From a virus, in IMG/VR virus record IMGVR_UViG_3300042691_014828, positions 1 through 33,834 of that record: a stretch of 33,834 nucleotides of DNA, one strand, 5' to 3'. The notes under the pieces were generated by a model. That model was not told the origin of the DNA and did not search any database. It worked only from the letters and a program-made list of their open reading frames with translations. Every line of letters starts with the position of its first letter. The first letter of the stretch is position 1. A program made the translations under genes and the position numbers. Of this stretch, positions 20,042-25,487 are shown one piece after another.

Positions 20042-20230
20042 TTACCATGAACCATCATCAACAACACCACGAACCCAAATTGGTCCGAGTGTCACATAAA
20101 TCCCACGCATGTTGGGATTCAAATCATCTGGATGTAGAAACTCAAATCTGAAATCCCAATGATATGGATTGATTACCAATCCAAACCACAAACCAGAATA
20201 ACGTACGTATTTACTTAATATCTTTAACAT
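20042..20230 (-). CDS. Conserved small unknown protein
   Basis: A 62-residue aromatic-rich protein: MLKILSKYVRYSGLWFGLVI, NPYHWDFRFEFLHPDD, then MRGIYVTLGPIWVRGVVDDG. The NPYHW and final VVDDGSW are typical of a small protein I recall from marine T4-like phages; function unknown. I choose the ATG at 20230 (20-nt overlap with the ClpP 3' end) because conserved relatives begin there; an in-frame ATG at 20260 would add ten residues. Neither has a strong ribosome site, so translational coupling to ClpP is likely. Confidence 0.72.
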   Translation of the reverse strand: MLKILSKYVRYSGLWFGLVINPYHWDFRFEFLHPDDLNPNMRGIYVTLGPIWVRGVVDDGSW

Positions 20231-20771
20231 CGTCGCAAATCCCATATTTTTTCGCTTCATTTGCGCTCAACCAAATATCTTGTGGTGGCAACAATACTTC
20301 ACGAATTTCTTTATCTGATAACCCAGTACATTTTTTGTAATGAGCAATCATGCGTTTGGTAGTTAAGTCGAACTCTTTAATTTGAGCAAACAACTCATGT
20401 TCTTTACCGAAAGCACCCCATGAATATTGGTGAGAGAGAATAGAAGTATTCGGTGTAAGAATACGTTGTCCCTTTTCACCAGCAATAAAAATCATTAATC
20501 CAGCAGAAGCAATTTGACCCAAGCCAATTGTTCTAATGGGAATGGCTGATCCACGCATTGTGTCAACCATAGCAAAAGCAGCATTCAAATCTCCACCTGG
20601 AGAGCAAATAATAAGATTAAGCATGTCTGGTCGTTCTTCAGCAAAGTTTGCTTCAAACACCCACTCAATTGCATTCTTACAAGTTGATAAACTTATCTCC
20701 TCCATCATCAGAAAGAAAGAATGTCTCGAAGCTGAATCGTCTTTCAGCTGGAGGTTTAGTTTTTCCATCAT
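20211..20771 (-). CDS. clpP: ClpP-like serine protease
   Basis: A 186-residue ClpP-family peptidase. The catalytic triad is intact: Ser89 in GQIASAGLM, His114 in SILSHQYSW, and Asp in PPQDIWLSANEA. The oxyanion/handle region CSPGGDLNAAF and the helix CKNAIEWVFEAN are typical. Host ClpP forms tetradecamers fed by ClpX or ClpA; the phage copy may replace or modify them. Starts are uncertain: ATG at 20771 (AAGG 11 nt upstream) or GTG at 20783. The RHSFFLMMEEIS strand before the usual core shows that the shorter start at 20708 would truncate the fold. This forces a long overlap (about 95 nt) with the wall-hydrolase gene. Confidence 0.88.
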   Translation of the reverse strand: MMEKLNLQLKDDSASRHSFFLMMEEISLSTCKNAIEWVFEANFAEERPDMLNLIICSPGGDLNAAFAMVDTMRGSAIPIRTIGLGQIASAGLMIFIAGEKGQRILTPNTSILSHQYSWGAFGKEHELFAQIKEFDLTTKRMIAHYKKCTGLSDKEIREVLLPPQDIWLSANEAKKYGICDDVKDIK

Positions 20772-21300
20772 AGTTTTTGCCACCTTCTTTATAAAAAATA
20801 TGTCGACCGATAGTAACTGTTTTCTGTAACTTCCATCCTGGATTTACATAATCAGCGTGATAATACAAAGCACCTTTAGTTATATCGTGTAGTTTCTCGT
20901 AGTTGGCATAAACGTATACAGCAACTTCTTTCGCTGACTGATACGATTCACTTCCTTTATTACTTTTGACTGCAGTACAGAACCAAGAAAATTGACACAT
21001 ACCTTGTGTCTTTTGTTTGACTACCCCACAGATGTCTTTTGGAAATCTTGGGTCTTCAACTCTATTTAAGGTCACTAGAGCAACGGCAACTTTGCCTTTC
21101 TCTGGTTCACTTCTTGCCTCATGGTAGATGTTGTCTGCCAAGCAATCAATTTGTTTCTTAGTATCTTTTGTTAATTCTGAATACGCAACATCAAGAATTT
21201 TATCATCCAGTGTAAAAATGTTATTTGATGCATATAATGTAGTTGCGATTATTGATAAAATCAATAAGCTGACAATTGCCAGTATCTTTTTAGTTCGCAT
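20677..21300 (-). CDS. SleB/CwlJ-type cell wall hydrolase
   Basis: A 207-residue protein with an N-terminal hydrophobic signal/anchor (about residues 5-24, ILAIVSLLILSIIATTLYA) and a SleB-type hydrolase domain. The domain shows CLADNIYHEARSEPEKGKVA with the catalytic Glu in YHEARSE, then VALVTLNRVEDPRFP, MCQFSWFC, ALYYHADYVNPGW and IGRHIFY. It should cleave murein from the periplasmic side. The last 37 residues after HIFY are Lys/Phe-rich, lie outside the domain, and are encoded where the ClpP gene overlaps. A strong AAGGAG site is 5 nt before the ATG. A lysis or superinfection role is possible alongside the GH19 endolysin. Confidence 0.88.
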   Translation of the reverse strand: MRTKKILAIVSLLILSIIATTLYASNNIFTLDDKILDVAYSELTKDTKKQIDCLADNIYHEARSEPEKGKVAVALVTLNRVEDPRFPKDICGVVKQKTQGMCQFSWFCTAVKSNKGSESYQSAKEVAVYVYANYEKLHDITKGALYYHADYVNPGWKLQKTVTIGRHIFYKEGGKNYDGKTKPPAERRFSFETFFLSDDGGDKFINL

Positions 21301-21924: not shown

Positions 21925-22197
21925 TTATTGATCTTCACGATAAATCGCTAAGATGTTTTCTTCGTCAATCAGTGCACGTTCAACATTACCGATCTTAACT
22001 GGTATGCACTTACCCCAATCAAGAACAATTTTATCGCCCTTGCGAACTTTCTTTACATCGTAACCGATCTCTAATACTTCAGCGAACTTAGTTACTTTAA
22101 CAGAAGCCGCACCCTCAAGAATAATGCCTGATTCAGTTTTTCGCTCATCAACTTTCACTTCAGCAATGTAAACTTTTTTACCCAATGGTTCAATCAT
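21925..22197 (-). CDS. groES: GroES-type co-chaperonin
   Basis: A 90-residue Cpn10-family protein: MIEPLGKKVYIAEVKVDERK followed by TESGIILEGAA, which is the conserved start of the mobile loop that contacts GroEL, then AEVLEIGYDVKKVRKGDKIV, the roof strand and LIDEENILAIY at the C-terminus. It should form a heptameric lid on host GroEL and, like T4 gp31, favour folding of phage capsid protein. GAGG lies 5 nt before the ATG. It directly follows the tmRNA terminator, so it may be transcribed by read-through or from a promoter I did not find. Confidence 0.92.
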   Translation of the reverse strand: MIEPLGKKVYIAEVKVDERKTESGIILEGAASVKVTKFAEVLEIGYDVKKVRKGDKIVLDWGKCIPVKIGNVERALIDEENILAIYREDQ

Positions 22198-22210: not shown

Positions 22211-22252
22211 AAAAAATTAATGATTGGTTATTCTGTTACGAGGAAACCAATC
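22211..22252 (-). terminator. Probable terminator of the tmRNA transcript
   Basis: On the minus strand GATTGGTT (22252-22245) pairs with AACCAATC (22229-22222) across a 15-nt loop, followed by ATTAATTTTTT (ends at 22211). The stem is AT-rich, so termination may be partial, which would let groES be co-transcribed. Part of this hairpin may also be the last helix of the tmRNA coding piece. Confidence 0.6.
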
Positions 22253-22478
22253 GAAACCCTAGTCAGCGTTTAGGCTGCCAATGCGTAGACAGAGTCGTTT
22301 GCATTTACTTTTTTGCTTGATTTACAGTCATCGCCTACTGTGTTGCCGTCGCCACTATCTACCCCTGTCGAAACCATGGCATCCCCATCATAAAAATTCT
22401 AAACAACTCTTATGGTGGAGATGGTGGGAGTCGAACCCACGTCCAGAAGTCCTTTGCTTTGAAGGAATTACAACAATA
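22222..22478 (-). ncRNA. ssrA: Circularly permuted (two-piece) tmRNA precursor
   Basis: Reading the minus strand, the acceptor piece comes first: a 5-bp hairpin, then a T-arm (GTGGG / TTCGACT loop / CCCAC, 22440-22424), acceptor strand CATCTCC and ACCA ending at 22413. After a 26-nt intervening segment comes the 5' end of the coding piece, GGGGATGCCATGGTTTCGAC (from 22386). GGGGATG (22386-22380) pairs with CATCTCC (22423-22417) over 7 bp, with G-U as the third pair, the alanyl-tRNA synthetase identity element. The tag frame 22302-22270 starts at GCA and encodes ANDSVYALAA then TAA, very close to the E. coli tag ANDENYALAA. RNase P and the host tail-processing enzymes would make two RNAs held by base pairing. 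It rescues stalled ribosomes with host SmpB, which is not encoded here. Confidence 0.93.
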
Positions 22479-22483
22479 CACTA

Positions 22484-22512
22484 ATTATACCCCACAATTT
22501 CTTGCAAGGCAA
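22484..22512 (-). promoter_or_regulatory. tmRNA promoter
   Basis: Minus strand TTGCCT (22512-22507), 17-nt spacer starting TGCAA, TATAAT (22489-22484). It belongs to the same promoter family as 18711, 19090 and 29017. Initiation near 22477 fits the start of the tmRNA acceptor piece, supporting the permuted order since there is no room for a normal tmRNA upstream. Confidence 0.85.
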
Positions 22513-22513
22513 A

Positions 22514-23167
22514 TTAGATGTTATATTTATTCTTATAGTCAAGTCTTAGTTTGCGAAACCCACCAATCCAGTTATCACGTTTCTCGATAAACCAACGAGG
22601 ATCATCATTATCAACAGCCATAATAATTACAAGTCTACCAACAGGAATGCCTGTTCTCTCTTCAAAGGCAACAGCGTATGCTGCAGTTTGCATAAAATAG
22701 TTATGAATATCATCACGATCTTTTGGTTTACTTGATGTCTTAAAATCTATGACACTAAGTTTACCTTGGAACTCTGCGATACAATCAACTGTTCCAGCGA
22801 CTTGTAAGTGGTCAGAATAGAGTGGATCTTCCAAGCAGTGAATTTTGTCGACTTTGTCAAGTAAGGGTTTAATGGAGTTGAACATTTCGAGGTCGAACAT
22901 GTCGGCTTCGAATAAGTTTCCTCGTAGGTAGTCTTCACAGTATCCGTGAATCCTTGTGCCTCTTGCTGATGCTTTTCCAGAGATTCGGTTTGCTTCTTCG
23001 TTTCCGACTCGCTTTCTCCACTCTGCGATTCCCTTTGCTGTGTGTAATCCTGTAACGGTAGTGACGCTTGGATAGGCTGAACCCGATGGAGTCTTGTAGA
23101 CTCTTGTTCCATCGGAGGATGTGGCACGTTCGAGTTTGGGTAAATCATGATGTATAAATGTCTTCAT
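22514..23167 (-). CDS. RecB-like PD-(D/E)XK exonuclease
   Basis: A 217-residue nuclease. The PD-(D/E)XK signature is clear: AGTVDCIAEF followed by KLSVIDFKTSSK, giving Asp, Asp and Lys in the expected order. The upstream SAYPSVTTVTGL and GKASARGTRIHGYCEDYL carry the His motif of RecB/Cas4-like relatives. The YFMQTAAYAVAFEER helix after the catalytic strand is also family-typical. Related proteins occur in marine T4-like phages and may process DNA ends in recombination or degrade host DNA. The stop is just upstream of the tmRNA -35 box. Confidence 0.85.
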   Translation of the reverse strand: MKTFIHHDLPKLERATSSDGTRVYKTPSGSAYPSVTTVTGLHTAKGIAEWRKRVGNEEANRISGKASARGTRIHGYCEDYLRGNLFEADMFDLEMFNSIKPLLDKVDKIHCLEDPLYSDHLQVAGTVDCIAEFQGKLSVIDFKTSSKPKDRDDIHNYFMQTAAYAVAFEERTGIPVGRLVIIMAVDNDDPRWFIEKRDNWIGGFRKLRLDYKNKYNI

Positions 23168-23887
23168 TTAGTTCCAATATTTCGAATAATCCATTTTGTT
23201 CCAATATTCTTCATTATTTCTATTCCAAAAATTTTTGATAAGATATGTAGCCATGCCAAAATATCCCATCTTCTTAAATCTTCTACTGTCCTGCCCAAAA
23301 TAATGATTCACCAATTTGAACTTTTTAACATCATACATCTTAGAGAGAAAGAAGTCTTCACTAGTTCCAAACTTGGCAGGAAATCCACCAAATTCTTCAA
23401 ACTTGTTTCTTCGTGTTAACATGTAAGCACCAACAGCAAATGGAACTTTATATTTCAATATGTTGTTAACTGCATTGAATAACATAAATCCAATTTGTGC
23501 AGTTAAATTACCATCATAACACTTCGCATACAATCCAATGAGATCTAAGTTATTATACTCTAATTCATTTACTGTGTCAAGTATAACTGTGTTAGAGAAA
23601 AATCTTACATCGCTATCAATAAACAGTATGTATGGAGTTGTTACTAATTTTGCGCCATTGTTCTTTGCAATAGAAACTGGTCCACCATCAATAACCTCAA
23701 CATTCAATTCACCCTTCATTATTTGAATAACTTCTCGTGTTTTGTCAGTTGAGCAATCAGCAATGATAATTTTAGTATTGCCTATCGATTGTTGACGTAA
23801 ATGCATTAATAAATGCGCAATATAGTTTTCTTCGTTCTTACATGGAACAACTATTGTGATTTTATCCTCTAAAGTATTTTTTGACAT
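23168..23887 (-). CDS. Family 2 glycosyltransferase
   Basis: A 239-residue GT2 (GT-A fold) enzyme: nucleotide-sugar binding start ITIVVPCKNEENYIAHLL, ADCSTDKTREVI, the DxD metal motif in LFIDSDVRFF, a conserved GGFPAKFGTSEDFFLSKM with the catalytic-type ED, and a short basic C-terminus. No clear membrane helix, so it is probably cytoplasmic or peripheral. The acceptor is not predictable; phage or host surface glycans are likely. It overlaps the 47-aa ORF upstream by 19 nt and is next to the LpxH-like and desaturase genes, suggesting a shared envelope role. Confidence 0.9.
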   Translation of the reverse strand: MSKNTLEDKITIVVPCKNEENYIAHLLMHLRQQSIGNTKIIIADCSTDKTREVIQIMKGELNVEVIDGGPVSIAKNNGAKLVTTPYILFIDSDVRFFSNTVILDTVNELEYNNLDLIGLYAKCYDGNLTAQIGFMLFNAVNNILKYKVPFAVGAYMLTRRNKFEEFGGFPAKFGTSEDFFLSKMYDVKKFKLVNHYFGQDSRRFKKMGYFGMATYLIKNFWNRNNEEYWNKMDYSKYWN

Positions 23888-24012
23888 TTACCTTCTACCT
23901 TAAAATTCTTAAACTTCAATTCAAACTTCATTGATGCCAAAGCGAATTCGCAACTCATCCGATCTTTGAATTCTAATTCAATTTTTCCTGGCTGATCCTG
24001 TGGATTATTCAT
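23869..24012 (-). CDS. Very small conserved-looking protein
   Basis: A 47-residue frame, MNNPQDQPGKIELEFKDRMS followed by CEFALASMKFELKFKNFKVE. It fills the only gap between the glycosyltransferase and phosphoesterase genes and overlaps both (19 nt and 8 nt). The short beta-type content (KIELEF, KFELKF) resembles tiny marine phage proteins I have seen described only as unknown. There is no ribosome site, so translation would be coupled. Moderate support. Confidence 0.5.
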   Translation of the reverse strand: MNNPQDQPGKIELEFKDRMSCEFALASMKFELKFKNFKVEGKCQKIL

Positions 24013-24787
24013 GTGCACTGCTACTAGTATTAACAACCACATCATCTTTCTCCTTAGTCCATGTTACTATTTCCCATCGACCATCATGATGCTCAACTAA
24101 TGCAGTACAAGATTCAACCCAATCACCATCATTCATATACATGACACCATCAATCTCTTTAATCTCGGCATGGTGTATATGCCCACAAATAACTCCATCA
24201 AACCCACGCTTCTTGCAATATCCCGCCAAGTTTTCTTCAAACTTGAATACAAAGTCTACTGCTTTTTTAACTTTATGCTTAAGGAACTTGCTAAGGCTAA
24301 AGTACCCAAAACCCATACGATGACGTATCCAATTATATTTGGAATTGATACTAAGAACGAAGTCATATGCTTTGTCTCCTAAGAATGCTATCCATGGTGC
24401 GAGTCTAGTAATTCCATCAAATAGATCTCCATGAACTACAAGATAGTGATTACCATCTACCCCTATATGTTCTGCTTGATTGCGTATTTCTATTGTACCA
24501 AAACTAAAACCATATGGTATCATTGGTCTTAAGAATTCGTCATGATTGCCTGCTACGTAAATCACTCTTGTGCCACGTTTAGCATGACCCAATATACGAC
24601 GTACTACGTTAGTGTGGCTTTGTCTCCATCGCCATTTGTTTTGTTGTATACGCCATGCATCTATTATATCACCCACGAGATATAAAGTCTCGCAGGTATT
24701 ATTTTTCAAAAAATTATTTAATTTATCAGCTTGACAATCACGAGTTCCTAAATGTACATCACTTATGAATATCGTTTTGTATTTCAT
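24005..24787 (-). CDS. LpxH-like metallophosphoesterase
   Basis: A 260-residue calcineurin-fold phosphoesterase of the UDP-2,3-diacylglucosamine diphosphatase type. All metal motifs are visible: SDVHLGTRDC, LVGDIIDAW, GNHDEF, VVHGDLFD and CGHIHHAE. The C-terminal YMNDGDWVESCTALVEHHDG is typical of the LpxH-like branch often found beside glycosyltransferases. It may hydrolyse a sugar-nucleotide lipid intermediate of the outer membrane; the true substrate is unknown. It overlaps the desaturase gene by 29 nt. This looks like a gene of host origin retained by the phage. Confidence 0.85.
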   Translation of the reverse strand: MKYKTIFISDVHLGTRDCQADKLNNFLKNNTCETLYLVGDIIDAWRIQQNKWRWRQSHTNVVRRILGHAKRGTRVIYVAGNHDEFLRPMIPYGFSFGTIEIRNQAEHIGVDGNHYLVVHGDLFDGITRLAPWIAFLGDKAYDFVLSINSKYNWIRHRMGFGYFSLSKFLKHKVKKAVDFVFKFEENLAGYCKKRGFDGVICGHIHHAEIKEIDGVMYMNDGDWVESCTALVEHHDGRWEIVTWTKEKDDVVVNTSSSAHE

Positions 24788-25487
24788 TTTTAATTTTTGC
24801 CAATTTAAATTTGTCTAGGATTGTTAACCACATCCAACCAATATCAAATTCAAACCATCTTCTACTTAATTTGGGGCTAGCAGGATTTAAGTGATGGTTG
24901 TTGTGCAGTTCTTCACCACCAATAATAATCCCCCAAGGACTAATGTTTCGACTTTGATCTTTAGTAGTTCCATTACGGTAACCTACCCAATGTCCTATTC
25001 CATTCACAACTCCTGCTGCCCAGAATGGAATCCATATCATCTGTATACCCCAAATTAACAATCCTACCCATCCAAATAGTAGAATATTAATAATCATCAT
25101 TAAGCTAACACCAAGTTTACTGTGTTTGGTGTAGACATTATTTTCTATCCAGTCATCAGGAGTTCCAACTCCATATGAATTAACCATATCTTTATCTTTA
25201 CTAGCATCATGGTATAAAAATGCACCTTTAAACAATACACGCCAAATACCGTACACATGAGGTGTGTGAGGATCACCTTCTTGATCACTATACCTGTGAT
25301 GTTTGCGGTGTATGGCTACCCATTGTTTCGTTACCATACCAGTGGTCATCCATAACCAGAACCTCATAAAATGACTCACAGCTGGATGAAATGTAACACC
25401 TCTGTGCGCTTGGGCTCTATGTAGAAAAAGTGTGACGCATAAAATAGTAATATGCGTCACAACTAGAACATATAAAAGTTCTAACAT
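24759..25487 (-). CDS. Membrane fatty-acid desaturase
   Basis: A 242-residue acyl desaturase. The three His boxes are present: HRAQAHR, HRKHH and HNNHH (within GEELHNNHHLN), the di-iron ligands of the delta-9 desaturase family. Hydrophobic segments around residues 3-22, 38-55 and 128-165 fit a four-helix membrane enzyme. It would introduce a double bond into host acyl lipids, changing membrane fluidity during infection. Its 5' end overlaps the endolysin stop and its 3' end overlaps the LpxH-like gene by 29 nt, so all are translated together. Confidence 0.9.
   Translation of the reverse strand: MLELLYVLVVTHITILCVTLFLHRAQAHRGVTFHPAVSHFMRFWLWMTTGMVTKQWVAIHRKHHRYSDQEGDPHTPHVYGIWRVLFKGAFLYHDASKDKDMVNSYGVGTPDDWIENNVYTKHSKLGVSLMMIINILLFGWVGLLIWGIQMIWIPFWAAGVVNGIGHWVGYRNGTTKDQSRNISPWGIIIGGEELHNNHHLNPASPKLSRRWFEFDIGWMWLTILDKFKLAKIKNEIQNDIHK

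Follow-up and report, generated by a model that had tools for sequence, protein, structure and literature searches.

Does a T4-like phage encode its own ribosome-rescue RNA, and what would it gain from one? The question is raised by a 33,834-nt stretch of viral DNA (hereafter "the window"), for which a first-pass annotation had proposed a phage-encoded, circularly permuted (two-piece) tmRNA. The 33.8-kb window is probably a fragment, since related contigs reach 160-170 kb. The T4-like setting supposed by the annotation was borne out by gp32 (PF08804) and a member of the helicase loader family, both encoded in the window.

A two-piece tmRNA gene next to a nuclease gene

ARAGORN called a permuted tmRNA with the tag ANDSVYALAA on the minus strand at positions 22505-22179. 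Rfam covariance models matched the same region well above threshold, with 160.1 bits for beta_tmRNA (RF01850; minus strand 22526-22200, E 9e-50, gathering score 84) and 155 bits for tmRNA_permuted (RF04321; minus strand 22475-22270, E 4e-31, threshold 47), and the proposed gene was thereby upheld. The first-pass annotation had suggested the alpha_tmRNA and cyano_tmRNA models for such a search; neither was the best, the top-scoring model within the Rfam clan being beta_tmRNA (one lower-scoring clan member was absent from the list compared). An alpha_tmRNA or cyano_tmRNA origin was therefore rejected, and the suggested kinship to alphaproteobacterial or picocyanobacterial ssrA gave way to a betaproteobacterial type. 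Single-strand fold energy was set aside as proof of structure, the value for the window tmRNA being weak on its own (z -1.46; 14 of 200 shuffles were as stable).

The permuted order is evident from the position of the CCA end (22413), which precedes the 5' acceptor strand (22386-22380) on the minus strand. The acceptor piece (22413-22475, minus strand, its start taken from the RF04321 match) is the 3' tRNA-like part and comprises a P2 strand, the T-arm (22440-22424), the 3' acceptor strand (22423-22417), A73 and the CCA. It is followed by a 26-nt intervening segment (22387-22412) that is presumed to be excised and whose ends can pair over 8 bp, and then by the coding piece (22222-22386, placed from Rfam and the anatomy), which holds the 5' acceptor strand, TGGTTTCGAC, a pseudoknot region, the tag and a 3' hairpin. 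The 3' boundary of the coding piece, at 22222, was set from this 8-bp hairpin (22222-22252). The 7-bp acceptor stem, the G3-U70 pair, A73 and the T-arm are all present, and the tag frame (22270-22302, from ARAGORN and the anatomy) has a degron end and a TAA stop codon; the window tag is an ordinary degron. The acceptor-stem positions, the G3-U70 pair, the CCA end and the canonical tag with its TAA had all been given exactly in the first-pass annotation. At the level of sequence, these features confirm that the minus strand carries a complete, intact circularly permuted tmRNA gene.

Just before the acceptor piece, at precisely the position where a promoter had been proposed, the minus strand has a promoter-like site made up of the -35 element TTGCCT (22507-22512) and the -10 element TATAAT (22484-22489), with 10 of 12 consensus letters and a spacer of 17; in the window, our promoter script chose an equal-scoring site slightly upstream of this one. 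Taken alone, the site in the window is weak evidence, with one promoter-like site found versus 1.3 expected by chance. Across 78 distinct upstream stretches from the window and its relatives, TATAAT was the best -10 element in 49, and 43 stretches scored at least 10 of 12, as compared with none of 78 mononucleotide shuffles. We found no terminator-like site between the tmRNA and the GroES-type gene, suggesting that transcription probably continues into the genes beyond. Among 73 distinct relatives, 67 have an intervening segment whose ends can form at least 7 bp, versus ~4% of shuffles; for the short segment of the window itself, 35% of shuffles reached 7 bp, making this single case weak alone. 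The same end pairing occurs in 20 of 26 bacterial segments, and is therefore not specific to phages.

Conservation of the RNA and of its gene row

We collected related loci through two neighbouring genes rather than through the RNA, taking the best 80 of 164 loci for the nuclease and the best 80 of 192 for the ClpP-type gene. The alignment set contained 124 rows with full flanks, consisting of the window and 123 calls (86 of them unique). Parsing succeeded for 113 of the 124; one of the 11 dropped rows has an altered TTCGAC motif, and ten lack a match to the T-arm/CCA pattern, three of which, when read, proved to have no encoded CCA. Because the rows are related, their counts are counts of sequences and not of independent events, and because the parsing pattern itself demanded the first two stem G's and the CCA, these letters do not serve as tests.

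All seven acceptor-stem pairs are standard in 113/113 parsed rows, and G3-U70 and the discriminator A are invariant in 113/113. Both sides change at acceptor pair 5 (G-C, A-U or C-G) and at pair 6 (U-A or A-U), and two-sided changes are seen at every one of T-stem pairs 1-4. The hairpin 3' of the tag has a 7- or 8-bp stem in 112 of the 113 rows (a raw count), with the pairing kept and the letters differing. Across 28 distinct ten-residue tag DNAs of relatives, the meaning of A-N-D and of A-L-A-A plus stop is constant, with codon changes at N2, D3, A7, L8, A9 and A10; position 6 is Y, F or W, and positions 4 and 5 are highly variable. Tags in the set that are not ten residues long are excluded from this count of 28, among them ANDAFFGEVRLAA of L127 and L177, two loci of the same gene row whose tag ends in GEVRLAA, breaking the ALAA end. 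The kept residues are presumably those used by ClpX (the LAA end) and by the SspB adaptor, as judged from work on the E. coli tag. Together with the model scores, the compensatory pairs in related contigs and the synonymous tag changes confirm that the predicted tmRNA signal exceeds chance. Separately, we observed that L152, L221 and L259, and perhaps seven more relatives, have a tmRNA without an encoded CCA (ACC, next base not A); the CCA of these three would need completion by a host enzyme, since the ACC lacks a following A.

The state of the tag bears on whether the RNA could act as a decoy that titrates host SmpB and so blocks rescue, for which the domain-only tmRNA form of phage DS6A offers a precedent (available parts of PMC4131195 and PMC11915505). 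The DS6A form has no tag, however, whereas the window-type tag is conserved at the protein level, making a decoy highly improbable.

The usual upstream neighbour of the tmRNA gene is a PD-(D/E)XK exonuclease gene (phrog_298; 22514-23167 in the window, minus strand). On its other side is a gene for a GroES-type co-chaperonin (21925-22197, minus strand; phrog_3188; Pfam Cpn10 40.1 bits, cut-off 21.1; under the NCBIfam cut-offs), which starts 24 nt past the tmRNA hairpin. Further along the minus strand are genes for a cell wall hydrolase (Hydrolase_2; 20677-21300), found in the same order in relatives, and for a ClpP-type serine protease (20211-20768, with an inferred start codon at 20768; Pfam CLP_protease 105.4 bits); four genes separate the latter from the tmRNA. 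The recurring order is PhoH, GH19, nuclease, tmRNA, (GroES), small genes, cell wall hydrolase, ClpP, small genes, gp59 and gp32, with GroES often, not always, recognised between tmRNA and ClpP. Upstream of the nuclease, window positions 23168-25487 hold genes for a glycosyltransferase, an LpxH-like metallophosphoesterase and a DesA-type fatty acid desaturase; in L003, L028, L075, L096 and L101, long-tag tmRNAs are likewise followed, 2-3 kb downstream, by relatives of the first two of these genes.

A permuted tmRNA was present in 74 of the 80 nuclease loci (best 80 of 164), 72 of them called by ARAGORN and two, L140 and L202, added by Rfam; the L140 gene is interrupted by the contig end. The ARAGORN tmRNA lies within 1.5 kb downstream of the nuclease in 66 of the 78 loci with at least 600 nt there, and farther away in 6. 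ARAGORN and Rfam found no permuted tmRNA in the L143 and L181 loci. L142, whose long nuclease locus has no tmRNA or ClpP, has both elsewhere in its record, and L160, L203 and L204, searched by ARAGORN only, are on contigs that end ~700 nt or less from the nuclease. For the 71 nuclease loci with at least 4.5 kb downstream, ARAGORN and phmmer gave 63 with tmRNA and ClpP, 4 with tmRNA alone, 1 with ClpP alone and 3 with neither; inclusion of the Rfam match in L202, the ClpP-alone locus, brings the first class to 64 of 71. We do not claim this linkage as a statistical association, the loci being one group of related phages.

Compensatory changes, a kept tag and a recurring position over dozens of contigs speak against a functionless copy acquired from a host, an explanation to which we give next to no credence although the RNA belongs to a host-like family and gain and loss of tRNA genes is common in phages. 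That the RNA is often retained near one locus would also suit a role in counter-defence, whereby ribosome recycling is restored when host abortive-infection nucleases cut mRNA; mRNA-cleaving toxins do generate tmRNA substrates, and we consider this role unlikely.

Tags, bacterial relatives and named phages

A 19-base probe from the window RNA matched at least 120 virus stretches, and ARAGORN called a permuted tmRNA in 110 of 124 loci (the 120 probe loci listed, the window and three from named phages). Besides ten-residue tags, the probe matches listed included tags of ANDAFYGEERLAA type (13 residues, 15 rows), ANADTFDFSAMSFTG type (28-31 residues, 19 rows), ANTFEFKTFSVEEVASNDFAFELAA type (25-27 residues, 13 rows), AKTSTGEVTVSGK type (29 or 31 residues, ending LAV or FAV, 17 rows) and ANASNDEVFALAA type (9 rows). 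In L001, L002, L003, L004 and their groups, 13- to 31-residue tags, some with LAV/FAV ends, are thus carried on a core like that of the window. In a test whose sites are not independent, an excess of changes at third codon positions was seen for the ANDAFYGEERLAA type (p 0.0016) and for two lengths of the ANADTFDFSAMSFTG type (p 0.0035 and 0.0002), and was absent for the ANTFEFKTFSVEEVASNDFAFELAA, AKTSTGEVTVSGK and ANASNDEVFALAA types (p ~0.4); by this measure, a coding tag is supported for the FYGE and TFDF sets, and not for the TFEF, TGEV and ASNDE sets. A tblastn search for two long tags in named phages gave no match for one and only chance matches (E 9) for the other.

A quick tree was built from the RNA core after removal of the tag and the intervening segment; it comprises 124 rows, of which 40 are a random draw from this gene row, and its support is modest (164 columns, many open forks). 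Tag kinds are interleaved in this tree, and identical cores in L007 and L037 bear different called tags (that of L037 may be a miscall), suggesting that tags have been exchanged on a shared phage RNA core. The group that holds the window contains ten further rows, all of the window's gene row, and adjoins two long-tag rows. Of the 26 bacterial rows, 21 fall in one group and five among phage rows.

In the order to which Azonexus belongs, 22 of the 399 genomes searched scored above the permuted-model cut-off, 17 of these with more than 100 bits; the remaining five (48-53 bits) have standard tmRNAs by ARAGORN. The best-scoring chromosomal match to the window tmRNA in the 399 genomes was 77% identical over ~161 nt, and the seven top-scoring DNA matches were 71-77% identical. 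The betaproteobacterial permuted tmRNA (RF01850) agrees with the window RNA in gene order, in the stems, in the start of the tag and in the 3' hairpin. By contrast, the window RNA has a score of 160 bits, below the 299-328 bits of five Azonexus, Dechloromonas and related genomes, and carries S at position 4 of its tag, whereas nearly all sampled bacterial permuted copies have ANDE... tags. A pattern for the bacterial copy closest to the phage form had no match in the genome contigs. We conclude no more than that the phage RNAs resemble a lineage circulating among phages, with exchange now and then. In one bacterial genome (G274), a permuted tmRNA (L382) has an odd long called tag and is perhaps prophage-borne; the same genome has a weak second tmRNA match elsewhere.

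The tmRNAs of Mycobacterium, Streptomyces and Bacillus phages are likewise phage-borne rescue RNAs, and are one-piece; the Streptomyces phage matches share only a 33-base T-arm and acceptor stretch with the window. When window positions 12000-33834 were compared with named phages by megablast, the sole match was one of 33 bases, in three records labelled Listeria phage (OR847240.1, OR848174.1 and OR848209.1) that have this exact tmRNA T-arm and acceptor stretch in common with the window; the label may be unreliable, since one of the three is from wastewater and is marked unverified.

Two-piece ssrA genes in T4-like myoviruses were published in 2022 for Methylophilales phage Melnitz and Pelagibacter phage Mosig (MT647606) (PMC9004378, available part), and the novelty that the first-pass annotation attached to a phage two-piece tmRNA was thus overstated. 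The permuted tmRNA of Mosig resembles that of the window in belonging to a T4-like myovirus and in lying close downstream of a PD-(D/E)XK nuclease gene. It differs in that alpha_tmRNA is the best model of the clan, whereas the window RNA is of the beta type; in that it is followed by a gene for a late-promoter transcription accessory, whereas the window has GroES and ClpP types downstream; and in that Mosig, unlike the window, has no CLP_protease match. An alpha-type tmRNA at the same post-nuclease spot suggests that the position is perhaps older than the present RNA type, or that the RNA was exchanged in place. A glutamine riboswitch is reported with the ssrA of Melnitz and Mosig (PMC9004378, available part); at Rfam gathering scores, we found no riboswitch in the 8-kb Mosig locus and no glutamine riboswitch in the window, where tmRNA matches were the only ones.

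The named phages with the best matches to the ClpP-type protein of the window, Sinorhizobium jumbo phage Phosso (51% identity) and cyanophage BUCT-ZZ01 (56%), both have a tmRNA_permuted match above the cut-off; unlike in the window, their tmRNA and ClpP genes are far apart. ARAGORN calls the tmRNA of BUCT-ZZ01 and not that of Phosso. In BUCT-ZZ01, which infects Synechococcus elongatus, the permuted tmRNA (L311; ON615601.1 116952-117248) has the tag ANDETFSMALAA. Another Sinorhizobium jumbo phage, AP-J-162, is reported to have tmRNA, GroES and Clp proteins (PMC11242549, available part). Neither tmRNA nor ClpP was found in phage C48C1, and of the five large records obtained with the probe, three had a ClpP and two lacked it. 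Since Mosig and Acinetobacter phage BUCT628 have a permuted tmRNA without a CLP_protease match, tmRNA and ClpP are not obligate partners. In searches of the open-licence PMC literature, we recognised no report of the tmRNA-ClpP gene row or of long phage tags. As compared with what is published, the recurring row with GroES-type and ClpP-type genes and the swapping of tags are leads, and the parts worth following.

Partners and possible role in infection

The ClpP-type protein has a triad of S87, H112 and D163 (numbered from base 20765), which is kept in relatives (S in 81/81, H in 80/81, with one unread, and D in 81/81 sequences). It scores above the Pfam threshold for CLP_protease and is divergent, with 71.7 bits against the NCBIfam clpP equivalog cut-off of 308.6. 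Its best PHROGs family is head maturation protease (89.1 bits, versus 69.9 for ATP-dependent protease), its best NCBIfam matches are ClpP (93.7 bits) and head protease (62.8 bits), and PDB chains rank ClpP first. In T4-like phages, head maturation is carried out by another enzyme, gp21, and we therefore lean towards ClpP rather than a head maturation protease for this putative neighbour protease. The quality of its predicted structure was too low for further analysis (mean pLDDT 42.5).

SmpB was not found in any of 20 large records, 15 of them from this gene row, and the ClpB_D2-small domain (ClpX-type), which is carried by ClpX and ClpA, was not found in the 15 large records of this gene row; in both cases the records may be incomplete. 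These results suggest that the phage tmRNA probably requires host partners.

We favour, with a probability of about 0.65, a working two-piece tmRNA of betaproteobacterial type that would serve host-assisted rescue and tagging, raising rescue capacity and amino-acid recycling. A single transcript would begin ~7 nt after the -10 element, host tRNA enzymes would excise the intervening segment, and the acceptor and P2 helices would hold the two pieces together. Host alanyl-tRNA synthetase would charge the CCA end, and host SmpB would deliver the charged RNA to ribosomes that have stalled on broken messages, a situation expected to be frequent during phage takeover as mRNAs are cleaved. The ribosome would then shift to the tag frame, append A-ANDSVYALAA and be released. 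The LAA end would then direct the fragment into degradation by the Clp system, with host ClpX or ClpA acting together with either host ClpP or the phage ClpP-type protein, whose gene is on the same strand as the tmRNA. The phage would gain added rescue capacity and recycled amino acids in infection. As far as can be read from the DNA, the window tmRNA is ordinary in mechanism and of the published kind.

The first-pass annotation had offered two possible roles, replacement of host rescue and the marking of proteins for proteolysis, and the second is somewhat more plausible given the linked ClpP-type gene. For Melnitz it was proposed (PMC9004378, available part) that the extra tmRNA mainly tags host proteins for degradation in an early takeover, with their amino acids recycled. 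The sigma70-type promoter-like sites in relatives, the canonical degron and the ClpP-type gene in the same row are consistent with this proposal. A tmRNA acts on any stalled ribosome, however, with no choice of host messages, and we saw no selectivity element, making a takeover of this kind doubtful.

Beyond the host-assisted rescue that we favour, the tmRNA may, tentatively, be the tagging component of a phage-run rescue-and-degrade module in which tmRNA, co-chaperonin and ClpP form one row, with the RNA core a platform for exchangeable tags; we regard this as possible without holding it probable. If the phage does run such a module, tagged non-stop chains would be refolded or destroyed by phage parts plugged into host SmpB and ClpX. 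If the core is such a platform, tags of 13-31 residues, some of them LAV/FAV-ended, could send chains elsewhere than to ordinary ClpXP degradation, and the extended phage tags would be a natural variant set with which to explore roles of a tmRNA tag other than that of a ClpXP degron. If the tagging RNA and a ClpP are both supplied by the phage, phages would be taking over trans-translation and not merely tolerating it, and the purpose of phage tmRNAs would become testable.
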